Virus record (IMG/VR): IMGVR_UViG_3300013094_003731
Coordinates: 1 to 64,000 of that record
Origin: a virus
DNA length: 64,000 bases
Direction: 5' to 3' (one strand)
Below, one piece after another: positions 17,059 to 44,004 of this stretch. How positions within the stretch are numbered: the first letter of the stretch is position 1; every line of letters begins with the position of its first letter. The notes beneath the pieces were generated by a model that worked only from the letters and a program-made list of their open reading frames with translations, was not told the DNA's origin and did not search any database. Made by a program: the position numbers and the translations under genes.

Positions 17059-18039
17059 ATGAAACGAATTTTAACAATATTATTACTACTGCCTGCATTA
17101 GCATTTGCATGGGAACCCAGTCCCAACAAGCCCATTGAAGTAATTGTAGGCAACAATCCTGGTGCTGGTAATGAACTGGCATTTAGAGAACTAATGGCCA
17201 TTGTGAATCAAACACAACCCACGGTCAAGTGGTATGTGGTAAACAAGCCCGGAGCCGACAGTGTGGTGTCAATGAACGAATTGTACAAAGCCACTCCAGA
17301 TGGATATACTATAAATGCGTTAAGCCATATGAGCACATTTGTCACAAACGATATTTGGGAAAAGTCTGTAAAGAAATGGCAATGGAATGAATTTACTCAT
17401 GTGTTGACCATGGGCAAGAGTCCACAAGTGCTAGTGGCCAGTGTTCGAAGTACAATTAATACTCCTGAAGAATTTGTAAAGTTGATCAGCACAACCAACC
17501 GCCCCATTAGTGTAGCGGTGGGCGGAGGGGCACATCGCACAGTGTTTGAATACTTAATGGTTAAAGGACACGGTAATACCGAGTTAGTTAAAACAGTTAA
17601 ATTTAATGGACCATTGCAAGCAGTTACTAGTGTGGCACAGTTTGATGGTAACTTGGGCACAGAGTTTGGTATCATGCCCATTGCAGTGGCCAAACCCTTG
17701 ATCGAAGCCGGCAAAGTCAAAGCAATTGGATTTAGTGGAACACACAAGATGGCACAGTATCCCAATGTACCTTTGTTGAACGGTGTTGCCCCCGGAGTAA
17801 ATGTATATGCCGCTTGGAGTATTGCATTGCCACCCAACACACCACAAGAAGTCGTTGACTGGTATGTCAAGACATTTAGTGCCGCCGTACACAGTAAACA
17901 GTATCAACAATGGTGTTATGACAATGTGGTGTTTACCGATGATGCAGAATTGACTCCTGCAGGATTGGTTCGACATGCACAAAGTCTACGTGATACATTT
18001 TTACCCATGTTGGAAAAGATTGATATCAGTAAAGACTAA
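17059..18039 (+). CDS. TctC/Bug-family periplasmic solute-binding protein (copy 1)
   Basis: 326 residues with a clear signal peptide (MKRILTILLLLPALAFA, cleavage near residue 17). Mature features match tripartite tricarboxylate transporter receptors: PIEVIVGNNPGAGNELAFRE, VVNKPGADSV, an ATPDGYTI motif, VAVGGGAHR and a C-terminal VPLLNGVAPG segment. In bacteria these capture carboxylates or other small solutes in the periplasm for TctAB or for sensing. A receptor on a phage is very unusual. A second, divergent copy lies at 20193. No TctA or TctB membrane gene is present, so it would have to work with host partners or alone. Confidence 0.88.
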   Translation: MKRILTILLLLPALAFAWEPSPNKPIEVIVGNNPGAGNELAFRELMAIVNQTQPTVKWYVVNKPGADSVVSMNELYKATPDGYTINALSHMSTFVTNDIWEKSVKKWQWNEFTHVLTMGKSPQVLVASVRSTINTPEEFVKLISTTNRPISVAVGGGAHRTVFEYLMVKGHGNTELVKTVKFNGPLQAVTSVAQFDGNLGTEFGIMPIAVAKPLIEAGKVKAIGFSGTHKMAQYPNVPLLNGVAPGVNVYAAWSIALPPNTPQEVVDWYVKTFSAAVHSKQYQQWCYDNVVFTDDAELTPAGLVRHAQSLRDTFLPMLEKIDISKD

Positions 18040-20192: not shown

Positions 20193-21086
20193 ATGAAAAA
20201 ATTACTCGCCGTTGTTCTTTCTGCATTTGCAATCACGAGCATGGCTAAAGAAACTGTGACAATTTATTATGCTTTTAGTCCCGCAGACACCATGGCTGCA
20301 TACAGTAGGACCTTGGTCGAGGAAGCCAACCATATACAGGACAAATACACCTTTGTGTTTGATACCAAACCCGGTGCTGGCAATGCCATTGCTGCTAATT
20401 TTGTGAAAAATAACAGTAATACTATTTTGGCCACCAGCAGTGCATTTTTTATCCGACCCAATTTTTATCCCAATGAAAGTTACAATGTCAACGATTTTCA
20501 AGAACTAATGCCACAATGTAATGCACCAATAGCAATCAGTAGCACCAAGTATCAAACCTGGGCCGATGTTCCCAAGGACAAACCACTCAATATTGGCACA
20601 AGCGGATTGGGAGTGACTACCCATTTGACTTCGTTGCAGATTGTGTCTAAATTTCCCAATGTTCAAGTTGTGCCGTTCAAGAGTACAAACGACAGCATTT
20701 TGTCCATGATGTCGGGCAACATTGACTTGCACGTGGGATTTCTAGGCGAAAGCGAGTCCTGGGGCGACAAGGTACACATACTGGGAACCACTGGCCCCAA
20801 ATCGGTCAATCATCATCCGATCTTGGCCGGCGAGGGATTTGCAAAAATAGTGTCCAACATGGATGCCCCGCATCATTTGGTTGTACCAAAATCGGTGCCG
20901 GATGAAAAATTTCGCGAATGGCGTAAGATACTGGTACAGGCTGCTCGAGCCGAATCGGTGCAAAAATCCTACTTGATCGATCATTGTTACAGCATGAGCG
21001 AAATGAAAGATCAAGACTTGCATGCCTGGTACGAATCGCAACAGGCCCAGTGGAAGAAATTGAGCACTGGTGTAAAAATTGATTAA
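20193..21086 (+). CDS. TctC/Bug-family periplasmic solute-binding protein (copy 2)
   Basis: 297 residues with a signal peptide (MKKLLAVVLSAFAITSMA, cleavage near residue 18). The fold markers of the family are present though diverged: FDTKPGAGNAIAANFVKN, LNIGTSGLGVTTHLT, VPFKSTNDSILSMMSGNIDL and a C-terminal helix pair. It is shorter than copy 1 (326) and only distantly related to it, so the two probably arose separately or long ago. It ends in an 8-base overlap with the PP-loop gene. The ligand cannot be predicted. Confidence 0.8.
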   Translation: MKKLLAVVLSAFAITSMAKETVTIYYAFSPADTMAAYSRTLVEEANHIQDKYTFVFDTKPGAGNAIAANFVKNNSNTILATSSAFFIRPNFYPNESYNVNDFQELMPQCNAPIAISSTKYQTWADVPKDKPLNIGTSGLGVTTHLTSLQIVSKFPNVQVVPFKSTNDSILSMMSGNIDLHVGFLGESESWGDKVHILGTTGPKSVNHHPILAGEGFAKIVSNMDAPHHLVVPKSVPDEKFREWRKILVQAARAESVQKSYLIDHCYSMSEMKDQDLHAWYESQQAQWKKLSTGVKID

Positions 21087-32322: not shown

Positions 32323-32349
32323 CTAAATATAGTAATAGAGAATATTACT
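32323..32349 (+). promoter_or_regulatory. Late box followed by a hairpin abutting the start codon
   Basis: CTAAATA at 32323-32329. AGTAATA (32331-32337) pairs with TATTACT (32343-32349), a 7-bp stem ending at the base before the ATG at 32350. No Shine-Dalgarno is visible, so the hairpin could control translation. Confidence 0.35.
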
Positions 32350-33591
32350 ATGTTTGTCACTGAATTATTTGAAGCACAAGAGCGTCGTGTACTGGTAGCT
32401 TATCCCGGACGCTTTCAGCCCTTTCATCAAGGGCATCTTGCTGTACTAAAACTGTTGCAGGCCAAATTTGGTGCTGACAATGTGCGTATTACCACTAGTC
32501 CCAATACAGTTCAAGACAAAATAGCATCGGGACAAAAATACGACAAGAAATCACTTCCCAAGAATCCGTTTAACGCCAATGAAAAAATCCAGCTCATGAA
32601 GGCAGCTGGAGTCAACGATCATCAAATACTATTGGTCAATGATCCTTACGGGATAGATTCAGTGGTAGCGGCTGCTGGAATCGATACAAACTCTACAGTT
32701 TTAATTTTTGCCGTTGGTGCTCCCGACAAAGAACGTTTGGAAGTTGATAGCTTTTATCAAGAGTTTACGCCCACAGGACGTCGAGCCACTATTCCCCCGG
32801 GAAAAGCAGTGGGCGACGAAAAGCCGTTTAAAACATTACCAAAGAATCTAACTGACACTGTTACTGTAGGTGAAGGACATGCTTATGTGCTGGTTGTTCC
32901 CGAAAAGAAAGTGCCGTTTACTGTAAATGGTGAAATAGTGGATATCAGTCATGGCACCGAATGCCGTGCAGTCTACAACCAAGTTAGAAACGACCCCAAG
33001 CAACGTGATGCTTTCTTAAAGGCATTATATGGACGTGCCACTCCCGAGCTGGTACACATATTCAATAAAATAACCCCGGATTCGGGAGCCGAACCTGTTG
33101 CCGGGACACCACCAGCAAAGACCGCTACACGGTTACCGGCACCGGCTGAACCTGCAGGTGGTATGGAGGTTAAAAAGAGTGCCAAGCGAGCCAATTCTCT
33201 AGTCAGTGAAATGGGCGGGGTTGGTGTGGTCAAAGGCGGGAATGATCCACGCTATGTAATGAGCACTGCTGGCGATCAAAATGCAGTAACTGGCAAGACA
33301 TTGGGCGACGAAATGAAGGCACTTCATTTGACCGGAGTTAAAGCACCCAAAACTGGCCAAACACCAGTTAAAAATACCGTGGGTCGGGGCTTGAAAGAAA
33401 ATGATAGTTTTGATAGTGGCCTTGCTCGAGCCAAACAAAATCTATTAGACATGATCGACATGCGTATCAACAGTATTCAAAACATGGTCAAAGGCGATCC
33501 CGAAGCTGAACGTGCGTATGCTCCAAAACTAAAAGAACTTGAACAAAAGAAACTGGAAATAATTGTGGGTAGAAAGTTAGGAGCCATGTAA
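32350..33591 (+). CDS. Nucleotidyltransferase-domain protein with head-targeting-like leader
   Basis: 413 residues. The first ten residues, MFVTELFEAQ, fit the short leader shared by several proteins here. A cytidylyltransferase/adenylyltransferase-like domain follows: AYPGRFQPFHQGHLAVLK with the HxGH nucleotide-binding motif near residue 27, and about 200 residues of Rossmann fold. The second half is low complexity, Pro/Ala/Lys-rich (about 240-285), then a helical C-terminus (DMIDMRINSIQNMVKGDPEAE). HxGH proteins transfer nucleotidyl groups to sugars or cofactors; the substrate is unknown. A related protein is known in T4-like cyanophages. Confidence 0.7.
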   Translation: MFVTELFEAQERRVLVAYPGRFQPFHQGHLAVLKLLQAKFGADNVRITTSPNTVQDKIASGQKYDKKSLPKNPFNANEKIQLMKAAGVNDHQILLVNDPYGIDSVVAAAGIDTNSTVLIFAVGAPDKERLEVDSFYQEFTPTGRRATIPPGKAVGDEKPFKTLPKNLTDTVTVGEGHAYVLVVPEKKVPFTVNGEIVDISHGTECRAVYNQVRNDPKQRDAFLKALYGRATPELVHIFNKITPDSGAEPVAGTPPAKTATRLPAPAEPAGGMEVKKSAKRANSLVSEMGGVGVVKGGNDPRYVMSTAGDQNAVTGKTLGDEMKALHLTGVKAPKTGQTPVKNTVGRGLKENDSFDSGLARAKQNLLDMIDMRINSIQNMVKGDPEAERAYAPKLKELEQKKLEIIVGRKLGAM

Positions 33592-33592
33592 C

Positions 33593-33871
33593 ATGGCCCG
33601 CACAGTGATCACGCTCGATGTTTACTGTGATACAACACAACACGGTACTCCGGCATATCGTGTGTATGTGGACAATGACTTATTGACCGAACGCAGTTGG
33701 ATCTGGCCCGCATACGAAATATTCATACAAGAAAACTTAGAAGTCGATATCGAATCCGGCACACACCAAGTTCGTATAGAAAGTTGCGGAGCTGAAACTG
33801 TATTTAGACCTCGCAATTTAACTGTTGATAGCAAAACTGTAGATTCACAAGATTTAACGTTTTCTACTTAA
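33593..33871 (+). CDS. Small beta-sandwich-like protein (family member 2)
   Basis: 92 residues, nearly all strands: VITLDVYCDTTQHGTPAYRV, YVDNDLLTERSWIWPAYEI, VDIESGTHQVRIESCGAET. Resembles the first part of the proteins at 31875 and 63558. Starts one base after the nucleotidyltransferase gene, so probably co-translated. Function unknown; a small virion-surface or internal protein is possible. Confidence 0.55.
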   Translation: MARTVITLDVYCDTTQHGTPAYRVYVDNDLLTERSWIWPAYEIFIQENLEVDIESGTHQVRIESCGAETVFRPRNLTVDSKTVDSQDLTFST

Positions 33872-33873
33872 CG

Positions 33874-33880
33874 CTAAATA
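33874..33880 (+). promoter_or_regulatory. Late promoter-like box CTAAATA
   Basis: CTAAATA 22 bases before the ATG at 33903, with a CAGGA ribosome binding site between. Confidence 0.35.
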
Positions 33881-33902
33881 TACAATATATTCAGGAATCA
33901 CG

Positions 33903-35147
33903 ATGAAACCCACAGAATTTTTACAAGAATTTACCGATGCACCCAGTGATGGCACTGATGCAACTATGGCCAAAAACACCTTGCACACCATTGTACGTGT
34001 AGCCAGTCACTTAGAAGGTGCGTTAAGCGACAACGAACATTTACCTGAATGGGTCGAGGAAAAACTCGGAGCTATTAAAGAAATGATGGTCACTGTCATG
34101 GACTATGCATTGAGCCAACACGAAATGGACAAAGAACACGAAGACGGATTGCCTGCGTTCAATATTGGCAATGCTGAACAAACTGTTAATGAAATGCTTG
34201 ATGACGAAGACGAAGCAGAAAGAAAAATACAACATCTAATGCAAAAATATCACTGGAGCCGTCAAGAGGCCATGGAGCACTACTATTATGGCGAACACGA
34301 TCCAAGTGATTGGGAAGGCATAGAAGAGGGCTACAATCCTGTAGAATCAGACTGGCATAATTGGTCAAAAGCACTATATCCACACGGAGACGGAGCACAC
34401 GCACTTGAGTTAGTGGGCCGTGATGCTGATACTGTTAGAAATATTTTAACGTATGTAAAACAAAATAGACAGGTACTAGGCCAAGAAGTTGGCGACAGAA
34501 CTAACAAAACTGTAAAAGATGCTATTATTGATATTAGAAAAGCGTACCCCGAATTATATCAGTCAGCACAACAACCACAAGGTATGGCGGAAGGCCAACG
34601 TTGGGCCGACGAAAAGACATCACTGAGTTATCCCAATCGCAAACGTATAGAAGTCGATCCCAAAGCCAGTAAACACTTTGGTCCACTTGCCACTCGACTT
34701 GATGGTCCTAAATATAATATACCACAAAAGCCCGTGAACAAAAGTAAAGCACCAGGAGAGATACCTAACTTTTTAAAGAAAGGTGTGGAGGAGCACATTG
34801 TTAAAGTCAAAGGCGGTTACGAGTTAAAGAGCAAACATGGCGACAAGAATTTGGGCAAGTATCCCACTAGAGCCGGTGCAGAAAAACGTGAACGTCAAGT
34901 ACAATATTTTAAACATGCAGGCGAGAGTGTTAACGAAACAAAGTCGTTAAGACAACAACTCAAACAAGAATTAAATCGACTAAGTGAAGATTCTGGTGCC
35001 ACTGTAAGCAGTTCAGTTGCTACCGTTGTTACTGAATTGGGTGCTGGTGGCATGACCAAGGCACAAGTGCAAAAACGATTGCAAGGCTATTCCAATAGAC
35101 AAAGCAACGTCAAGCACGATATCAAACCACCAAAGGCCAAAAAATAA
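33903..35147 (+). CDS. Putative internal head protein A (leader MKPTEFLQEF)
   Basis: 414 residues, highly charged and mostly helical. The leader MKPTEFLQEF closely resembles the capsid-targeting sequence of T4 internal proteins (MKTYQEFIAEA), which is cut after a Leu/Ile-x-Glu by the prohead protease. It has an acidic part (MLDDEDEAERKIQHLMQKYHW), a PQGMAEGQRW element near residue 227 like the VAEG repeats of the protein at 36058, and a Lys-rich C-terminus that could bind DNA. No enzyme motif is seen. TAATG overlap links it to the next gene. Confidence 0.6.
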   Translation: MKPTEFLQEFTDAPSDGTDATMAKNTLHTIVRVASHLEGALSDNEHLPEWVEEKLGAIKEMMVTVMDYALSQHEMDKEHEDGLPAFNIGNAEQTVNEMLDDEDEAERKIQHLMQKYHWSRQEAMEHYYYGEHDPSDWEGIEEGYNPVESDWHNWSKALYPHGDGAHALELVGRDADTVRNILTYVKQNRQVLGQEVGDRTNKTVKDAIIDIRKAYPELYQSAQQPQGMAEGQRWADEKTSLSYPNRKRIEVDPKASKHFGPLATRLDGPKYNIPQKPVNKSKAPGEIPNFLKKGVEEHIVKVKGGYELKSKHGDKNLGKYPTRAGAEKRERQVQYFKHAGESVNETKSLRQQLKQELNRLSEDSGATVSSSVATVVTELGAGGMTKAQVQKRLQGYSNRQSNVKHDIKPPKAKK

Positions 35148-36058
35148 TGGATCAGCATTTTAGCAATATCATAAACACATTCAAACGGTTAGATGAAATG
35201 GCTCCGCAGGGCATGAAGGCAGTGGCCATATCCGATCCACAAACTGGCAAGCAGTTGGATTACTTGGATGTGGATACGGCTGCAAAAAAATACGGGTTCA
35301 ATCCTCAAGACGTAGCCAAACAACTTGCTCTGCAACCATTTACGCAAATGAAGGCTAGTGATGGTAAAACATACACAGTGCAAAAAGAAATAGGCTCAAC
35401 TGCATTCAAACCACCGGCAACAACTCCACCCAGCCAACAAGTTGCACAAAATCAACAGGCCCAGACACAAGCAGAAGCTGCTAGTCCGGCACAGATACAG
35501 GCTGCCAAGGCCATCAACATGAAAAAACATCACATCCGTCCCAAGAACGAAGACAGTATGGCGGCGGCTGAACATAATCCACGTGGTGCCAAATTTGGTG
35601 GTTACTGGAAGGGCACCGACAAGAACCCACCTCGTCCCGGACAAGGTGTTGGTGGTTGCGAAGAAAGCATAGAAGAGGCTATTGCACGCGAGTGGAAGGC
35701 CTACGTTCAAGAAGCAGGAGCCAGTAATCCAGCCCAAGGTGGACAACAACAAAATCCACAGGTGGCAGCAAAGCAAAAACAAACAATAACAACCGGTTTA
35801 CAAAAAATTTCTCAAGCCACTGGTAAAAAGCCCGTAGGTGGTGTTCCTACTGCGGCAAACGGTGGAGCTGAATTTTTAAACACTCCCAATGCTGATCCTG
35901 CAACAGGAAAAGGCATGAGCCCACAAGCTAAAAAGTTTGCTGCCACTGTAACTGATGAACTTGGGCCGGCACTACTAGATCCACAAGCATCACAACAAAT
36001 TGCTACAGCAGTTAAACAGGCAACACAAAAACAAAATGCTGCCGCAGGAGTCAAATAA
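35147..36058 (+). CDS. Putative internal head protein B
   Basis: 303 residues. The leader MDQHFSNIINTFKRLDEMAPQG includes LDE followed by a small-residue turn, a possible protease site. Residues 85-200 are Gln/Pro/Ala-rich with HHIRPKNEDSMAAAEHNPRG, and SIEEAIAREWKAYVQEAG resembles linker-helix elements of the neighbouring proteins. The C-terminus is Ala/Gln-rich and basic. It overlaps both neighbours by a single base (TAATG), so all three are translated together. Confidence 0.55.
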   Translation: MDQHFSNIINTFKRLDEMAPQGMKAVAISDPQTGKQLDYLDVDTAAKKYGFNPQDVAKQLALQPFTQMKASDGKTYTVQKEIGSTAFKPPATTPPSQQVAQNQQAQTQAEAASPAQIQAAKAINMKKHHIRPKNEDSMAAAEHNPRGAKFGGYWKGTDKNPPRPGQGVGGCEESIEEAIAREWKAYVQEAGASNPAQGGQQQNPQVAAKQKQTITTGLQKISQATGKKPVGGVPTAANGGAEFLNTPNADPATGKGMSPQAKKFAATVTDELGPALLDPQASQQIATAVKQATQKQNAAAGVK

Positions 36059-38502
36059 TGTTTTTAAATGATATTGTAGATGCCATGAGCATTGCAGAAG
36101 CCAAACGCACTCAAGCACAACGCAATCGTGAACACTGCCGCACCGGTTGGCACAAAGAAGGATCAAAGGCCAGTCCCACTTATGGCAAAGAGGTCAAGGT
36201 CAATAACTGTGTTAAAAATAAACCTTTAAAAGAATTTGCACCCAGTCCCGAATACGGCGGTGGTGACAATGGTATGGGTTATCTACATGCTTTGGCACAG
36301 GCTTGGTACACACAGGATCTGAGCCTATTGGCAGACATAGCCCGAAAAGGTGGTAGCCCAATGAAGAAGGTTATTGATGCACAAGTGGCAGTGGAAAAAA
36401 TATTGAGTCGTGGCGTACATTGTCCTGATGGCAAGGTAAGAAAATACTACATTGACTACAACGCAGATTTTGATGGTGTAGACATGGCCAGTCATGATTA
36501 CTATGAATATGCTGATGATGGCGAGAACGGTGAAGAGGTAGACAGTCGTACAGGCCAACCCTGGAGTCCATATGACCACATAGAATTTCAAGGCAGTGAT
36601 TTAGGTGAGAGTGTAGAAGAAGCCATGATGACCGGAGGCACAGAAGCCTATGCCATGGAAGATGAACAACTGGACGGTATGGCACTGGGCGAACTACGGG
36701 CCATAGCCGAGGCTGCAAAAAAGATTTACCGATCTGTTAAACAGGGCGTACCACTAGAAGCATGGATGTACAAAAAGATCACCAACGGCAACGAAGGCTT
36801 GACTGCAGTGGCACAACAGATTGACAATCCTGCAGTTAGAGAACAACAGGGCGTAGCGGAAGGGTCACAATCAAGACTACAACCAGGAACTCATGTAATG
36901 TTATGGTTAGGCCCAAAAGACATGCTACCAAATCCTCCAAGAGATGATAAACAGTATTGGGACCGAGGTGTAGTAGTTAGTGAACCAGAAATGATGACTG
37001 GAAGTTGGCAAGTCTTAGTAAAATCACAACGAGCAGGTCAATCACCTATTAGTCCTGCACGTGTGTTTGTTCTTAAACAACAGGATGTGGCGGAAGGATC
37101 ATATGATACCGTAACATTTGGCGTTGACAGTGAAAAGGCCTACAATCAAGTAATGGCCAAATTCGGCAAAGCGATCAGCTGGCATGGCGATGACATGACG
37201 GCTCCACGTAAGTATTGGGCGGCTATACAACAATTGGCACACGACGCTGGCGGTGCAGCTGAAGAAACCGGATACGAGCGAGATGTGGCTGAGACCACAG
37301 GCGATAAGCCTTTTGACCACATGATGACGACTATTAAAACGGGCACCAAAAAACAAGCCACCGCAGATAGACGCGAGCAAAAACGGCAAGACCAAGAAAG
37401 AACAAGAGCTGCAATTGACAATATGTTTGGCAGTAGCATGAATCAATTTAAAAATTTAAAAATTAAAGAGCAAGGTGTAGCTGAAGCAGAATTTGAACCA
37501 CACACTGCCAAATTTGGTAAACAAGTATTAGGCCACAAAAAAGGTCAGGACGAGCCAATGGGCACTGCCAACATTGAAATACAGATCAATGGGCGTACTT
37601 GGAAGATTTTTCCCGGTGCCGGTCCCGAAAACAGTAAAGCATGGTTTGAACAAAAACAAAAGATGCGAGAGATGTGTGCTCGTAAAACTGCACAAACTGG
37701 AAAAGAGTGGAAAATGTACATTACTGGCAAACCACCAACAGTTGAAGGTGTAGAAGAAGGCAAATTTGCAAACGCACTGGGTGCATTTACATTGGGTGCA
37801 GCCGGTGTTGCTGGCATGATGGGCAACCAAGACATTGACTATAAAGGCTATTCGTTTCATCATGCCCCAAGAGAAATGTCAGTGCCGGGTGCTGCCAAGT
37901 TGATGAACGTAGACGGCAAAGAATTGTTCATGTGGCGAGCTGTTGATCCCAAAGAAGGCGGACCCAAATACTACTATAAAACCAAAGCCGAAACCAGAAT
38001 CGACAATGCCATGGGCATGAACGAAAACGACGTCGACGAAGATTCATGGCACGGTGAAGGTGATGCTTGGCATGGCCAAGGGCAAGTAATGGAATATGCG
38101 GATGGCCATATGGTTCCAAACGATAGTACAAGTGCTATTCCCGGAACACCCGGTCTTGACGAAGATGGTCCCAGTAGACAGTCCTTGATTGACCAGTTAA
38201 AGCACAAAGTGGATGTAAGTCATTTAGAATTACTCACATACGACGAATTGTTAAAAGTATGCAAACACTACGGAATTGAATTGAACGAGTACAATGCTGC
38301 AGATCCTGCAGTGGGAGCCGGTCCCGATGATTCATCAAGTCCAGTTCCGCCCGGCAATCAACGTGTAAATGTTTCTAAATTGTCCGGGCCTACTCCAATG
38401 ACCAGCCAATATCAAAAGCCCATGGGCATTGCTGAACGTCGCCAACAACGTTTAATGGCAGTGCGTTTGGCCGAAATGCGACGTGCCGGATACTTTGACT
38501 AA
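36058..38502 (+). CDS. Putative internal head protein C, 814 aa, modular with VAEG spacers
   Basis: The leader MFLNDIVDAMSIAEAKR includes IAE-A, a possible prohead protease site. Modules are separated by similar short spacers: EQQGVAEGSQ near residue 264, QQDVAEGSYD near 342, EQGVAEAEFE near 472 and GVEEGKFANA near 564. Modules include KKIYRSVKQGVPLEAWMYKK, a DYNADFDGVDMASHDYYEY acidic patch, and a C-terminal part ending in MGIAERRQQRLMAVRLAEM. No known enzyme motif was found. The architecture suggests a polyprotein whose beads are released by cleavage after Val-Ala-Glu. Position between other leader-bearing genes supports this, but it is inference. Confidence 0.6.
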   Translation: MFLNDIVDAMSIAEAKRTQAQRNREHCRTGWHKEGSKASPTYGKEVKVNNCVKNKPLKEFAPSPEYGGGDNGMGYLHALAQAWYTQDLSLLADIARKGGSPMKKVIDAQVAVEKILSRGVHCPDGKVRKYYIDYNADFDGVDMASHDYYEYADDGENGEEVDSRTGQPWSPYDHIEFQGSDLGESVEEAMMTGGTEAYAMEDEQLDGMALGELRAIAEAAKKIYRSVKQGVPLEAWMYKKITNGNEGLTAVAQQIDNPAVREQQGVAEGSQSRLQPGTHVMLWLGPKDMLPNPPRDDKQYWDRGVVVSEPEMMTGSWQVLVKSQRAGQSPISPARVFVLKQQDVAEGSYDTVTFGVDSEKAYNQVMAKFGKAISWHGDDMTAPRKYWAAIQQLAHDAGGAAEETGYERDVAETTGDKPFDHMMTTIKTGTKKQATADRREQKRQDQERTRAAIDNMFGSSMNQFKNLKIKEQGVAEAEFEPHTAKFGKQVLGHKKGQDEPMGTANIEIQINGRTWKIFPGAGPENSKAWFEQKQKMREMCARKTAQTGKEWKMYITGKPPTVEGVEEGKFANALGAFTLGAAGVAGMMGNQDIDYKGYSFHHAPREMSVPGAAKLMNVDGKELFMWRAVDPKEGGPKYYYKTKAETRIDNAMGMNENDVDEDSWHGEGDAWHGQGQVMEYADGHMVPNDSTSAIPGTPGLDEDGPSRQSLIDQLKHKVDVSHLELLTYDELLKVCKHYGIELNEYNAADPAVGAGPDDSSSPVPPGNQRVNVSKLSGPTPMTSQYQKPMGIAERRQQRLMAVRLAEMRRAGYFD

Positions 38503-38505
38503 ATA
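38499..38505 (+). promoter_or_regulatory. Late promoter-like box CTAAATA
   Basis: CTAAATA formed partly by the upstream stop codon, ending 6 bases before the dps ATG at 38512; no Shine-Dalgarno between. Confidence 0.4.
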
Positions 38506-38511
38506 TACATT

Positions 38512-38949
38512 ATGAACGAAGAATTAATTAACTCCTCTAAAATTGCTTTTGCCAGCAGTTTTAGTTTTTATTTAAAAAGTCACAACTTTCACTGGAACGT
38601 AGAAGGTGCTGCATTTTATCAATACCACAAACTATTTCAAAAAATATACGAGGAAGTTTACGGTAGCATTGACGATTTTGCCGAAAACATTCGCAAAAGT
38701 GGTGGATATGTTCCAGCCAGTTACACACGCTTCAGTGCATTAACCGAAATTGCAGACGAAACACAAATTCTTCCACCAGAAGAAATGGTGCTCGTATTAC
38801 TAGAAGATGCCGAACACATGATAGGCATAATCAAAGTTGTCTATGACTTGGCCGAATCGGCTGGCGAACATGGATTCAGTAACTTTTTGGCCGAACGTAT
38901 TGATGCGTTCCGTAAACATGCATGGATGCTACGAGCAACAGCAAAATGA
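38512..38949 (+). CDS. dps: Dps-family ferritin-like DNA-protection protein
   Basis: 145 residues, single Dps/ferritin domain. The ferroxidase residues typical of Dps can be seen: KSHNFHWNVEG (His and Trp), YQYHKLFQKIYEEVYGSIDDFAENIR (Asp and Glu) and a C-terminal helix FLAERIDAFRKHAWML. Dps proteins form 12-mers that oxidise and store iron and may coat DNA. It has no head-targeting leader, unlike its neighbours. Its place within the head-like cluster raises the chance that it protects or packs phage or host DNA. Overlaps the next gene by 4 bases. Confidence 0.88.
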   Translation: MNEELINSSKIAFASSFSFYLKSHNFHWNVEGAAFYQYHKLFQKIYEEVYGSIDDFAENIRKSGGYVPASYTRFSALTEIADETQILPPEEMVLVLLEDAEHMIGIIKVVYDLAESAGEHGFSNFLAERIDAFRKHAWMLRATAK

Positions 38950-40142
38950 GAGCAAGTGAATTTTTAATCGAATCCAAGGGCACCAAACTAGGTGGATTCA
39001 CAGTCAAGCCCCTACACATCGGCGGCGAAGTTGATGAAGCCATTGGACTAAATGCTCCGCATCGTAGACTTGATCGTGGCACAATGCAAAGTCGCGCTGA
39101 ACGAATCAAGACCGACACTCAAACCAAACAAGATCGTTTTGCTGGTATAATACATGGCAGTAATATCAAGGCCATTACCAAAGATGATCAAGTGGATGAT
39201 GAAGGCAATCCGGTCAATGAATGGGATTTAGATGACTTGGCTAGACAAATAATGGCTAGACCCAAAAGCATACTGGACAGTCCCAACGCCAAAATGTTAA
39301 AAAGTGCCACTGAGGGCGAGGTAGTATTGGACCTAACACTACCTGCGCTGGCCGGAATTATCATGGACGAAGCGACCGGTGACTTTGTGGAAATTGTAAC
39401 CTGTCCCGGAGCCGGTGCTTGTCAACTGTTTTGTTATGCACGAAAAGGCGGCTATGTAATGTTCCCGGCCAGTAGCATGAGTGCTGCTCGTAGTCTTAAC
39501 TTTTTGATTAATCATCCCGAAGAGTGGTTTGCTATGTTACGAGCCAACATTGATAAAATCAAAAGCGGACTTGCTGCTAAAGGAATGAAACTTGTAGTAC
39601 GTTGGCATGATGCTGGTGACTTCTTCAGTAAAGAATATTTAGACATGGCATTACAAGTAGCACGTGACTATCCGGATGTGGATTTTTATGCTTATACCAA
39701 GATGGCCATGGCAGCATTGGCCAACTTGCCCGACAACTTTGAAATTCAGCACAGTGGCGGAGCTAAAAGTCGCGAAGTCAAACCAATCAAGCAACACATT
39801 GCCGGTGGCGGTACAGTTAAACAAGCATTTGAAGTGCCTAAAGATATGTTTAGAGACTTGATTGTAACCAATCCCAAAGGCAAGGCCATCAAGGATGCCG
39901 AAGGGCGTACACAATTTAAATCACCCGAAGCTTGGGAAGAATTTAAACAACGTTTAATTAAAACGTTTGGTGCGGAAAGTAGTCAACCTATACGTCCCAA
40001 TACTATTATCAGCTACGATGAAATGTTGAAAATTCCAGTAGGACCAGTACGTAAATGGAATGTGGTAGTATTTGCCAGCGGACACGGCGACAGAGCAGCT
40101 AATCGACGTGATGTTATGAATAGCTTCTTGATGTTCCACTAA
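38946..40142 (+). CDS. GP88-like Cys-motif protein with head-targeting-like leader
   Basis: 398 residues from ATG 38946, overlapping the dps stop. Leader MRASEFLIESKG has LIE before Ser, closest in the window to T4 MKTYQEFIAEA. Near residue 156 the cysteine cluster CPGAGACQLFCYARKG is followed by SLNFLINHPEEWFAMLRANI and VVRWHDAGDFFSKEYLD. This is the pattern of the phage GP88 family, thought to be radical-SAM-like or Fe-S binding but uncharacterised. Basic C-terminus. If packaged, it would be an injected Fe-S enzyme; this is inferred from the leader and neighbours only. Confidence 0.6.
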   Translation: MRASEFLIESKGTKLGGFTVKPLHIGGEVDEAIGLNAPHRRLDRGTMQSRAERIKTDTQTKQDRFAGIIHGSNIKAITKDDQVDDEGNPVNEWDLDDLARQIMARPKSILDSPNAKMLKSATEGEVVLDLTLPALAGIIMDEATGDFVEIVTCPGAGACQLFCYARKGGYVMFPASSMSAARSLNFLINHPEEWFAMLRANIDKIKSGLAAKGMKLVVRWHDAGDFFSKEYLDMALQVARDYPDVDFYAYTKMAMAALANLPDNFEIQHSGGAKSREVKPIKQHIAGGGTVKQAFEVPKDMFRDLIVTNPKGKAIKDAEGRTQFKSPEAWEEFKQRLIKTFGAESSQPIRPNTIISYDEMLKIPVGPVRKWNVVVFASGHGDRAANRRDVMNSFLMFH

Positions 40143-40145
40143 ATA
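40139..40145 (+). promoter_or_regulatory. Late promoter-like box CTAAATA
   Basis: CTAAATA overlaps the upstream stop and ends 6 bases before the ATG at 40152; no Shine-Dalgarno between. Confidence 0.4.
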
Positions 40146-40151
40146 CTCATT

Positions 40152-43100
40152 ATGCGAGCAAAAGAGTATTCTAAAGAAAGCGACAACCGGGCATTTGTAC
40201 AAAAGTACATTCCTTGGATCGCTGAGCAATTGGGAATTAAAGAACTTCCTGAAATCACATTGCTAGATGCTCCTGTTGATACAACTTTTGGGCAGTATAA
40301 CCCAGAAACAAAAACACTAAATGTTGTCATTGCCAATCGCAATCCCATAGATGTGCTACGCACTCTTGCACACGAACTAACACATCATAAACAAAACTTA
40401 GCCGGAGAGTTGACTGCAGCTGCAGGCGAAACTGGTACTCCACAAGAAAACGAAGCCAATGCCAATGCCGGTGTTGTCATGCGTGACTTTGCCGAGGCCA
40501 ATCCCGAATACTTTGGTTTAAAAAAAAGTGGCATAACTGAAGAAGCATTTAACGGTATAGATATTTCTATTGAAATACAAAAAGACGATGAATACGTTGA
40601 TGATGACGATTACGATAATCAAGTAATGTATGTTACGGCTACAAGCAACGGTCGTGAGTTGGGTCATGTGTTATTTGCTTTTGATGGTGACGAATTACTA
40701 CCACAAGACCTAGAAGTTGAAGAACGCTATCGTGGGCAAGGCATTGCTCAAACCATGTATGACTATGTGAAAAGCAAAGGCTATAAAATCCGCCGCAGTG
40801 GGCAACAAACTGATGCTGGCGCCGGCTTTTGGGCTAAACATCGTCCCGAACAAAATGTCTGGGAAAATGATGTCGACGAAGGTAAAATCATACATCCTGA
40901 CAGAATCAATCTTTATCTAAATCTACGCCGACCCAACGCTAAACCAATTCAAATAGCACACAACATTCCCTACAAGGCAATGGATCCTGTTATAGCAAAA
41001 CTTGTCAGCAAGTATTCGGACGTTGAAGCCGACATGTTTGAATTTAGACCGGCTCCACCTCTTAAAGAAGCACCCGCACAAGATCCCTCACAAGATCCCG
41101 CAGTTGTGGCACTGTTAAATAAAATGAATTATCGCATGTGGTCTAAAGGTGATGGCGAATACATGATGACCTTCAATAATACACGTCTTGAATTTAACAG
41201 TGCCGGAGTATTTTATAACGGTCCACCAGTGAAAGGGCCCAACGGTGTCAAACCCAATTTTGGAATTAAATGGCGTCATGATCCCGAATGGTATAGTCCA
41301 AGGGGAGAAATAAGTTTTGAGCTGGCCTGGCAAATGGGACTATTCCCAAAAATCCAAGGAATATATCCCTATCTCCACGCAATGGATAAACAGGGCTATA
41401 GCGATCGCAAAAACTGTCTCGGGATAGATCAAGTCATAGTACAATCCGCTATTGACTATGTTCAAAGTCAAAACAAAGTAGACGAAAACATGGATCATGA
41501 CAAAGATAAAGATGCCGTAGAAGAATTACGTGCCGCATTGGAAGCACATAAAAAACAGATACAAGCAGTCGACGACAATGACGACAAAGTATACGATATC
41601 ATAGACAAGATCATGACACGTGTAGCCAAGAGTCATGGTATAAGCGGACAAAAAATGCATGATCTCTGGGTAGAAAAGTATAAACAAATTCCCGACACTT
41701 GGATCATGAGCGAAAACTTTGCCGATGGTAAGCATCCTGGACGCAAAGGATTGGCTAAACGCAGTGGTGTTAATACTAAAGCAAGTGTAAGTAGCCTACG
41801 TAAAACGGCCAAACATAGTACGGGAGAGAAAGCTCGTATGGCACACTGGTTGGCTAATATGAAAGCTGGCAAAAAGAAACATGCCAAAGAAGGCGTTGAC
41901 GAAGCTGTTGGCGAAAAGAAATTAGTTATATTTGACATTGACGATACGCTAGTAACTACTAATACTCGAGTTGGTGTAGTTCGCAATGGTAAAACTGTCA
42001 AGACCCTAGACAGTCACGAGTTTACATTGTACAAAAAGCAACCCGGCGAAGAATTTGACTTTGGTGCATTTAGAGATGCCGAAGACTTTTTCAAACATGC
42101 ACAACCAATTGCACCCATGATTGAGCAATTGAAAAATGATATTGCAACCGGTAATAAAGTTGTAATGGTTACTGCTAGAAGTGACTTTAACAATAAAGAA
42201 ATATTCTTAAAAACATTTGAACAATGGCACATAGATATGAACAAGGTACATGTGTACCGTGCAGGAAATGATCAAGATCCTGTGCCAATTGATGAAAAGA
42301 AAGCACGTATTATACGTAGATTGTTAACAGGATATCCTTATAACAAAGCAATTATGTACGATGATTCAAAGCCCAATTTGGAATCATTTTTAAAGTTACA
42401 CCAAGAATATCCTGATATTAGATTTTATGCTTGGCATGTAGACCGCAGTGGACATGCTACAGAGTATGCACGTGCCGTAGATGAAAGTTTATTTGAATCC
42501 GAAGTTGCTAATCAAGTTACTGATGCTGTAATAGATTTTTACCAAGATGAGGTTGGCGAAGTCGCTCGACAACCTGTTGACAATTACGTTGAACAAGCAC
42601 AAGCATTATTAGCCAAAGCCGATCCTTCAGTTCGTGGACAAGTTAAAGAAATTCTAGTCAAAGCCAAAACAAATCCTTATATACAAGGTGGTGTAATAAC
42701 AACCATTGGTACACTATTAACTGGTGGCTTGTTGCATATAGCGCAAAATGTACAACTTTCTCCAGCACAGACCAACATGTTGTTACAGGCAGTATTGAAT
42801 ACTGTTATACCTACTGTGGTGAGTCGAGTCAACGGCAAAAACTGGATCGACACTGTAAAATATACATTGGCTAGTGCCGGTATTGGTATAGGTATCGGTG
42901 CCATAAGCGAAGACGAGATAACCGAAATTGAAAATTTACAATCATATCAATATACAGGTGGTAAAGATGTGTTAAAACATCCTAGGTATACCGATCCCAG
43001 GGCAGTAAGCCAAAAGAATATAAAACCGTTACCGGGTGGCAGTGGATTAAATTATGCCACCATTGACACTGGGCGTTTTTTAGAAATAAGAATATTAGAT

Positions 43101-43652
43101 CAATCAGGGCAAGAAGCCGTCGGACAATTGAAATTGATGCGGGTAGGTTTTCCTATCAATAATGCATACCAAGTGAGTACCGTCACAGTGGATGAAGATT
43201 ATCGAGGACAGGGCATTGCCAAAGCCCTGTATGGTGTTGCACTAAGCATATTAAAAATAACCTTGCTTGCTGGATCACAACAAACACCCGGCGGTAAACG
43301 TAATTGGATGAGTCTAGCACAAATTCCCGGGGTTGAAGTTCGCGGCTACGTAGAATTGGAAAATAGTGATCTTAAATATAAAAAGTTACACAAACAAAAA
43401 AATGCCGATGATCTTGCAAGGGCAAAAAGAAGAAACGCGATAGTTGATAAAAATATTGATATTGTAATGGGACGATTGGGCGGTGACTATCTTGGAGACG
43501 ACGAAGATGGCAATATGATTTTTGCTTTTGACGTGGTGCCCGGTACCGGATCATTGACTCCAGCAGTAAAAACCGAATTAAACAAACTCTATTATGGTGA
43601 ATACGATATGATGTACGTAACTGGATTGTATGCACAGTGGCGTGGTGCATAA
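40152..43652 (+). CDS. 1166-aa multidomain protein: metallopeptidase motif, two GNAT-like domains, HAD phosphatase
   Basis: Leader MRAKEYSKES resembles those of neighbouring genes. Domains in order: zinc-peptidase HELTHHKQN (HExxH) near residue 75; GNAT-like EERYRGQGIAQTMYDYVKS near 190; two unrecognised segments; a basic block with GRKGLAKRSGVN and GEKARMAHWLANMKAGKKK near 530-580; HAD phosphatase with FDIDDTLVTTNT near 592, VTARSD near 673 and MYDDSKPN near 735; a hydrophobic stretch with Gly repeats near 840-915; a second GNAT-like TVDEDYRGQGIAKALYG near 1012. The linkers VDEGK, VDENM and VDEAV are candidate cleavage sites. It could be processed and injected. Each domain call rests on short motifs. 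Confidence 0.65.
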   Translation: MRAKEYSKESDNRAFVQKYIPWIAEQLGIKELPEITLLDAPVDTTFGQYNPETKTLNVVIANRNPIDVLRTLAHELTHHKQNLAGELTAAAGETGTPQENEANANAGVVMRDFAEANPEYFGLKKSGITEEAFNGIDISIEIQKDDEYVDDDDYDNQVMYVTATSNGRELGHVLFAFDGDELLPQDLEVEERYRGQGIAQTMYDYVKSKGYKIRRSGQQTDAGAGFWAKHRPEQNVWENDVDEGKIIHPDRINLYLNLRRPNAKPIQIAHNIPYKAMDPVIAKLVSKYSDVEADMFEFRPAPPLKEAPAQDPSQDPAVVALLNKMNYRMWSKGDGEYMMTFNNTRLEFNSAGVFYNGPPVKGPNGVKPNFGIKWRHDPEWYSPRGEISFELAWQMGLFPKIQGIYPYLHAMDKQGYSDRKNCLGIDQVIVQSAIDYVQSQNKVDENMDHDKDKDAVEELRAALEAHKKQIQAVDDNDDKVYDIIDKIMTRVAKSHGISGQKMHDLWVEKYKQIPDTWIMSENFADGKHPGRKGLAKRSGVNTKASVSSLRKTAKHSTGEKARMAHWLANMKAGKKKHAKEGVDEAVGEKKLVIFDIDDTLVTTNTRVGVVRNGKTVKTLDSHEFTLYKKQPGEEFDFGAFRDAEDFFKHAQPIAPMIEQLKNDIATGNKVVMVTARSDFNNKEIFLKTFEQWHIDMNKVHVYRAGNDQDPVPIDEKKARIIRRLLTGYPYNKAIMYDDSKPNLESFLKLHQEYPDIRFYAWHVDRSGHATEYARAVDESLFESEVANQVTDAVIDFYQDEVGEVARQPVDNYVEQAQALLAKADPSVRGQVKEILVKAKTNPYIQGGVITTIGTLLTGGLLHIAQNVQLSPAQTNMLLQAVLNTVIPTVVSRVNGKNWIDTVKYTLASAGIGIGIGAISEDEITEIENLQSYQYTGGKDVLKHPRYTDPRAVSQKNIKPLPGGSGLNYATIDTGRFLEIRILDQSGQEAVGQLKLMRVGFPINNAYQVSTVTVDEDYRGQGIAKALYGVALSILKITLLAGSQQTPGGKRNWMSLAQIPGVEVRGYVELENSDLKYKKLHKQKNADDLARAKRRNAIVDKNIDIVMGRLGGDYLGDDEDGNMIFAFDVVPGTGSLTPAVKTELNKLYYGEYDMMYVTGLYAQWRGA

Positions 43653-43765
43653 AGCGTGCCGTGATAATTAATGAAGCTCGTCTGCCAATTCGTTGTTGCC
43701 CAGAGGAGAGACACGGAAAATCCTCAGGTTCTTCAAATCTTTATCGGTCCGTATCGCAACGGCAC
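43653..43765 (+). ncRNA. Structured non-coding stretch before the acyl carrier gene
   Basis: The 124-base gap holds no convincing gene. GTGCCGT (43656-43662) can pair over 110 bases with ACGGCAC (43759-43765), and GAGGA...TCCTC forms an inner stem. No tRNA T-loop or anticodon arm is visible, so a tRNA is not supported. A TATCGCAACGG segment recurs as TGTCGCAACGG after the ACP gene. Confidence 0.3.
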
Positions 43766-43771
43766 TAAGTA
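43764..43771 (+). promoter_or_regulatory. Late promoter box variant ACTAAGTA
   Basis: ACTAAGTA ends 5 bases before the ACP ATG at 43777; no Shine-Dalgarno. The same arrangement as before 23388. Confidence 0.3.
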
Positions 43772-43776
43772 TTTAT

Positions 43777-44004
43777 ATGATAACACCACAACAATTGTTT
43801 GATTTTATAGCCCAGGACCAAGATCTTGATGCCACCAATTGGACTTTATCCACCACTTTGGACAGTTTGGGTATAGACAGTCTAGCTCGAATGGAGTTGG
43901 TGTTTAGACTCGAAGACGAATATAAAATCACAATCCCCAATGATGATATCGCAGTAAGCACATTACAAGAAGTATTGGATTTGGTCAACAGACACCTACC
44001 TTAG
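43777..44004 (+). CDS. acpP: Acyl carrier protein
   Basis: 75 residues. The phosphopantetheine site is LGIDSLARMEL, Ser35 being the attachment residue, followed by VFRLEDEYKITIPNDD and a helical end (TLQEVLDLVNRHL), as in bacterial ACP (about 78 residues). ACP carries fatty-acyl or other thioester chains and also partners with acyl transferases. Start set at ATG 43777 to match family length, though an in-frame ORF opens at 43693. It lies alone between structured non-coding stretches, unlike the rest of the genome. Role in the phage unknown: lipid change, acylated modification or use by the GNAT-like domains upstream are possibilities. Confidence 0.85.
   Translation: MITPQQLFDFIAQDQDLDATNWTLSTTLDSLGIDSLARMELVFRLEDEYKITIPNDDIAVSTLQEVLDLVNRHLP

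Follow-up and report, generated by a model that had tools for sequence, protein, structure and literature searches.

The run of genes between positions 32350 and 43652 of the window (the whole 64,000-nucleotide stretch analysed here, taken from a 79,915-bp virus record of an uncultured phage) raises the question of whether it encodes proteins that are brought into the prohead by T4-like leaders, cut there and injected. The DNA polymerase of the record has its nearest matches in T4-like jumbo phages. According to a T4 review, residues 1-10 of IPIII are enough for packaging, and gp21 cleaves after L/I-x-E. In the T4 record, the N-termini of ipII/ipIII (MKTYQEFIAE↓A) and gp24 (MAKINELLRE↓S) represent a first leader type and that of Alt (MELITELFDE↓D) a second; here and below the arrow marks the position after the Glu.

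The original prediction was that six clustered genes share one such targeting signal, so that about 11 kb would encode injected proteins. We confirmed the six ORFs at 32350, 33903, 35147, 36058, 38946 and 40152, with the GP88-like gene starting at 38946 and not at the upstream ATG at 38922. The features of the run are as follows.

32323..32329, +, CTAAATA, late-promoter-like, before gene 32350
32350..33591, +, HxGH nucleotidyltransferase/cytidylyltransferase-like protein with Alt-type leader MFVTELFE↓AQ (PF01467, E 2.6e-7; class B leader)
32350..32373, +, leader MFVTELFE of gene 32350 (from sequence, second-class pattern)
33874..33880, +, CTAAATA, late-promoter-like, before gene 33903
33903..35147, +, 414-aa protein with leader MKPTEFLQE (12.2 bits)
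33903..33929, +, leader MKPTEFLQE of gene 33903 (matrix score)
34578..34593, +, degenerate linker QGMAE↓G within gene 33903
35147..36058, +, 303-aa protein, a weak member of the run, leader-like solely via LDE↓M at residue 17
36058..38502, +, 814-aa polyprotein with leader MFLNDIVDAMSIAE (MFLNDIV...SIAE) and at least 4 internal VAE sites
36847..36862, +, linker QGVAE↓G at residue 268 of gene 36058
36866..37087, +, exchanged module of gene 36058 between two linkers (222 nt, 86.5% DNA identity to a 170-kb phage)
37081..37096, +, linker QDVAE↓G at residue 346 of gene 36058
37279..37293, +, site ERDVAE↓T at residue 412 of gene 36058
37471..37486, +, linker QGVAE↓A at residue 476 of gene 36058
38499-38505, +, CTAAATA, late-promoter-like, before the Dps-like gene 38512
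38512..38949, +, Dps/ferritin-like protein inside the run, without leader (PF00210, E 1.4e-21)
38946..40142, +, GP88-family protein with leader MRASEFLIE↓S (PF17338, E 2.5e-32; leader 21.1 bits)
38946..38972, +, leader MRASEFLIE of gene 38946 (matrix score)
40139..40145, +, CTAAATA, late-promoter-like, before gene 40152
40152..43652, +, 1166-aa polyprotein: from N to C terminus, leader, HExxH metallopeptidase, GNAT, unknown, NFADG, HAD-like phosphatase/kinase, helical and second GNAT
40152..40178, +, leader MRAKEYSKE of gene 40152 (7.2 bits)
40539..40541, +, Glu130 of GITE↓E in the 40152 protein, where the first GNAT module begins
40863..40880, +, NVWE↓NDVDE↓G, Glu238 and Glu243 of the 40152 protein, where the first GNAT module ends
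41484..41486, +, Glu445 of KVDE↓N in the 40152 protein
41712..41714, +, Glu521 of IMSE↓NFADG in the 40152 protein
41901..41903, +, Glu584 of GVDE↓A in the 40152 protein, where the HAD module begins
42483..42485, +, Glu778 of AVDE↓S in the 40152 protein
42909..42911, +, Glu920 of AISE↓D in the 40152 protein, where the last module begins

The HxGH nucleotidyltransferase and the GP88-like protein named in the original prediction are borne out by their PF01467 and PF17338 matches, as is the metallopeptidase/acetyltransferase/phosphatase polyprotein (gene 40152), with weak fold matches. Domain-family searches with the 33903 protein returned no family match above the cut-off. Proteins similar to the Dps/ferritin-like 38512 product adjoin cargo genes in loci L171 and L176. 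Elsewhere in the window, inspection points to a small ORF with acyl-carrier-protein-like sequence at 43693-44004 (LDSLGIDSLARMELV), and to signal-peptide-like starts and a resemblance to periplasmic solute-binding proteins at 17059-18039 and 20193-21086.

Two classes of N-terminal leader

The strict first-class leader pattern, M[RK]xx[ED][FIL][ILVMF]xE, is carried by 99 of 1920 proteins from related contigs, compared with a mean of 0.15 and a maximum of 3 in 500 shuffles, and follows an internal Met in 0 of 9608 cases. Chance or an ORF-start artefact as the source of the leader is ruled out by the shuffles together with the internal-Met control. The second-class pattern, M-F-x-x-[DE]-[LI]-[FV], occurs 31 times in related loci versus 1.04 by shuffling. 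The first-class leader is common to mostly unrelated protein families, with 61 leader-bearing proteins showing a mean column identity of 7% and many kinds of Pfam domain. Because the contigs were gathered by homology to window genes, these rates are not valid for all phages, and the proteins, de-duplicated as they are, remain incompletely independent.

We built a weight matrix from the 99 leader proteins, leaving out near-identical contigs to avoid circularity, and applied it to all 105 genes of the 79,915-bp record. Five genes score 7.2 bits or more, the next reaching 2.1, where shuffling expects 0.08 at 6 bits or more; no replication gene among the 105 scores. Three of the five belong to the run (38946 at 21.1 bits, 33903 at 12.2 and 40152 at 7.2), and two are minus-strand genes at record positions 76320-76715 and 76715-77329 (20.5 and 18.5 bits). 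A looser regular expression, applied to this genome alone, gave 5 observed versus about 1 expected, which is not significant. The two minus-strand genes, outside the window (L001:16320-17329), start with MRITEIITE↓S and MRIQEILAE↓G; on inspection alone, the 76715-77329 product has the look of an isochorismatase-type hydrolase from its HPVIVVDVQPEY start, and starts of this type, with leaders, recur in proteins of several related phages.

The prediction of capsid-targeting-like leaders held for five of the six genes, and their T4-likeness held through the match to the ipII/ipIII, gp24 and Alt propeptides. The single targeting signal did not hold: 33903, 38946 and 40152 carry the first type, and 32350 (MFVTELFE) and 36058 (MFLNDIV...SIAE) the second, Alt-like one. 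The T4 hallmark of a short N-terminal propeptide, some 10-20 residues long with an [LI]xE ending, fits 33903 and 38946, fits 40152 (YSKE) and 32350 (LFE) more loosely, and does not fit 35147. The latter, which fails the prediction, has the N-terminus MDQHFSNIINTFKRLDEM, to which neither leader class applies; its homologue in the related locus L175 has the N-terminus MDNNFADILNIFKRLDE↓G.

The T4-late-promoter-like CTAAATA lies close upstream of 32350, 33903, 38512 and 40152, and late-promoter-like sequences are enriched upstream of leader/linker genes in related loci (odds ratio 2.9, p 1e-7). Across relatives the cargo domains include GNAT, deaminase, GP88, cytidylyltransferase, sigma-70 region 4, Pol-beta nucleotidyltransferase, ParB, M48 peptidase, HD, LysM, transglycosylase and chitinase. 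GP88 homologues show leader variants and an N-terminal region with inserts of varied length; in GP88-like proteins of different phages (L002-L081), the region that receives these very variable inserts surrounds a QDVDE/QGVEE site.

Module borders, an 18-bp linker and module exchange

The internal cleavage-like sites between modules had been overlooked by the original prediction. Proteins related to 36058 and 40152 match those of the window in single modules only, in many cases at 75-92% identity, the flanking parts being unrelated. The 40152 product joins disparate domains in one chain (metallopeptidase, GNAT, HAD-like and GNAT), its metallopeptidase module being of the minigluzincin/selecase kind; the fold matches of its modules are weak, with a best E of about 1e-3. 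We folded this 1166-aa protein with AlphaFold as two halves, because a first whole-protein alignment had given low identities with GNAT pieces seemingly on the wrong copy; in the models the sites at module borders have low confidence (29-62).

Module junctions take the form [V/L/I/M]-x-E and align with the leader-terminal Glu of stand-alone homologues. The NFADG module stands alone as MRVIEIILE↓NFADGKKPGRK and is embedded as QGVAE↓NFADGKHPGRK and IMSE↓NFADGKKPGRK, and the SLD module stands alone as MRSQEFITE↓SLDHPYKILRW and is embedded as SINE↓SLDQPYKILRW. When the mature parts of 34 leader proteins were aligned into embedded homologues (projection test), 97 of the 148 distinct embedded starts had Glu precisely at P1 versus a 6.7% background, with V, L, I or M at P3 in 87 of these 97; the other 51 starts have no Glu at P1. 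For a wider set of 229 starts, Glu accounts for 50% of the P1 column versus 4-17% of other columns. BLAST segment ends likewise fall near [VLIM]xE, with 309 versus 137 expected and 323 versus 132 expected. The frequent V at P3 departs from the L/I-x-E rule given for T4 gp21.

QGVAE, the commonest junction, occurs in 95 distinct contexts versus 0.42 expected, and linkers number up to 10 in one protein, at a median spacing of ~78 residues. Among the 36 proteins that contain at least two linkers, 22 have a leader, versus 88 of 1915 linker-free proteins; the other 14 of the 36 polyproteins have no recognised leader. The commonest linker, QGVAE↓G, is also conserved at the DNA level, as CAAGGTGTGGCGGAAGGC: its Ala codon is GCG in 71 of 82 cases (rare elsewhere, 8%) and its Val codon GTG in 71 of 82 versus 19% elsewhere, with the conservation sharply bounded at about 18-20 bp. 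Linker matches occupy a single coding frame in 150 of 160 cases, most others lying where ORFs run off contigs. Across the viral collection, at least 120 stretches contain linker DNA. The copies within the window are degenerate, QGVAE and QDVAE keeping the V-A-E peptide though the DNA has drifted. A bacterial origin of the linker was rejected, the 26 scattered single matches in 257 Gb lying mostly in GC-rich genomes and in unrelated frames and being judged chance. A search of open-access literature for the linker string gave nothing relevant; other papers could describe it.

The modules themselves have been exchanged. The linker-bordered 222-nt module of gene 36058 shares its 86.5% DNA identity with a stand-alone ORF of the 170-kb phage, and the capsid proteins of that phage and of another phage with modules in common with the window are only 32% identical; near-identical modules in phages with such capsids have therefore moved horizontally. 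The role of the linker as a recombination seam is inferred. In the 170-kb phage the 36058 module is a small stand-alone ORF without leader (L174:9989-10237).

The prohead protease, virion data and known systems

The search for a gp21-like protease elsewhere in the record, a check proposed alongside the original prediction, failed: gp21 and gp23 are absent from the 80-kb record and from an 89-kb near twin, and PF03420 and a gp21 profile found nothing in the record itself. Among related records, gp23 was found in 12 of 31 and 7 of 18, and gp21 in exactly those (19/19). The record and its near twin are probably both fragments. One related record without gp21/gp23 breaks off within the portal gene, just ahead of the expected gp21, and in two long gp21-less related records the genes for portal, protease and capsid are all missing at once, as expected of fragments. 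His85 and Ser140, in T4 gp21 numbering, are kept by every one of 15 sequences, and related major capsid proteins have several [LI]xE sites in their propeptide, the last mostly directly before a conserved ATAG.

The published virion proteome of the T4-like cyanophage S-CREM2 comprises 52 detected proteins; we examined 217 of its annotated ORFs, leaving out only two, and 165 of the 217 are undetected in virions. All five ORFs matching a pattern with T4 spacing, M[KRQ]x4F[ILMFV]xE, are in the virion list versus 0 of the 165 undetected (Fisher 6.8e-4), and they comprise a SAM hydrolase, a kinase, a cytidylyltransferase and two unknowns. This spacing was chosen after the S-CREM2 N-termini were known, so the p value is post hoc and optimistic; nine-residue leader patterns show no enrichment among S-CREM2 virion proteins, and the proteome paper cautions about co-purification. 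The NMNAT of S-SCSM1, a virion protein, has the N-terminus MKSFLQFLKE↓A. The 32350 protein and the S-CREM2 cytidylyltransferase belong to the same superfamily, with a short and weak pairwise match. In the Cas9-like virion protein of S-CREM2 (L335:7704-10313), a leader-like LRFASFMAE↓A lies ~16-25 residues past the annotated start, which may be wrong.

The capsid-targeting reading of the leaders is supported by the T4 match, their absence from replication genes, CTAAATA, the gp21-encoding phages and the S-CREM2 virions. For the claim that about 11 kb encodes injected proteins the support is indirect: in the absence of proteomics on this group, presence in the virion rests on analogy with S-CREM2, and cutting and injection are inferred from the leader.

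The system resembles T4 internal head proteins and Alt in leader length, EF/ELF core, [LI]xE end, unrelated mature parts, late-promoter-like sequences and the presence of gp21 in the phage group. Unlike in T4, the typical first-class leader has 9 residues instead of 10, the cargo families are many more, and there are polyproteins with repeated internal sites at which V is common at P3. Like the polyvalent proteins of phages and conjugative elements (Iyer et al. 2017, PMC5512222), these proteins are multidomain and predicted to be injected, with GNAT, ParB and metallopeptidase domains in common; unlike them, they have proposed prohead-protease cuts at a fixed linker and exist in stand-alone versions with a leader. 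The ejection proteins of SPN3US and phiKZ are similar in that a prohead protease cuts after x-x-E and the packaged load is large, but differ in their mostly long propeptides and S/A-x-E specificity; the paper sections on these ejection proteins do not describe the QGVAE linker. The virion-associated enzymes of S-CREM2 and S-SCSM1 include cytidylyltransferase-family proteins with a T4-type leader, and the paper sections that bear on them do not mention the leader. Unlike here, such polyproteins were not found in the isolates searched, which gave only short or distant matches.

Proposed mechanism and alternatives

The most likely joint reading is that 32350-43652 encodes late, prohead-packaged, gp21-cut and injected cargo, including several modular polyproteins whose modules are reshuffled; the Dps-like 38512 is left out of this reading and 35147 is uncertain. 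Short N-terminal T4-type leaders would bring late cargo proteins into the prohead, where a gp21-type protease would cleave them after [L/I/V/M]-x-E, and the cleaved cargo would enter the host along with the DNA. Extra cuts at module borders (QGVAE↓G, VDE↓A, MSE↓N) would split the polyproteins, while still in the head, into individual small proteins. The modules would travel from phage to phage and alternate between standing alone and being embedded, probably via recombination at short conserved linkers, recombination as the reason for linker conservation being an inference. A bolder reading, which could as readily prove wrong as right, takes the 18-bp in-frame CAAGGTGTGGCGGAAGGC as both recombination seam and prohead-protease site, such that each new module would be packaged, cut free and injected.

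A referee might suggest that the leader targets the head while the junctions are uncut scars of gene fusion, so that long multidomain chains are injected in the manner of polyvalent proteins. Embedded homologues do retain the Glu of a former leader, and polyvalent proteins such as the N4 RNA polymerase are packaged uncut. However, P3 and P1 alone are kept while the remaining leader is lost, QGVAE has the same form yet is not leader-derived, and the sites lie in low-confidence inter-module stretches; we consider this alternative unlikely. Even less probable is a selfish or DNA-functional repeat (a recombination or packaging site), with the 18-bp linker merely tolerated in frame and its peptide having no role. 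The conserved synonymous positions (the GCG preference above) and the sharp 18-20 bp bounds speak for a DNA repeat, but the single frame of 150 of the 160 matches and the retention of V-A-E in diverged linkers while the DNA drifts speak against it. That the N-terminal motif serves a non-capsid role, for example by guiding late proteins to a membrane or a chaperone, can be all but dismissed: a short hydrophobic-acidic leader could in principle be read by other machinery (an inference), and there is no experiment on this phage, but the match to the T4 ipII, ipIII, gp24 and Alt propeptides and the detection in S-CREM2 virions argue against it.

If the reading as packaged, cut and injected cargo is true, the few internal proteins of T4 would extend to a broad, searchable delivery system, in which leader and linker predict the phage proteins that enter the host with the DNA. 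Many of the predicted injected proteins are of unknown function and may counter host defences, and the linker modules, about 50-150 residues long, could go directly into functional screens. A seam that serves both DNA and protein would give cargo a new route of evolution. The phage would in effect load and inject swappable cassettes of host-modifying proteins.
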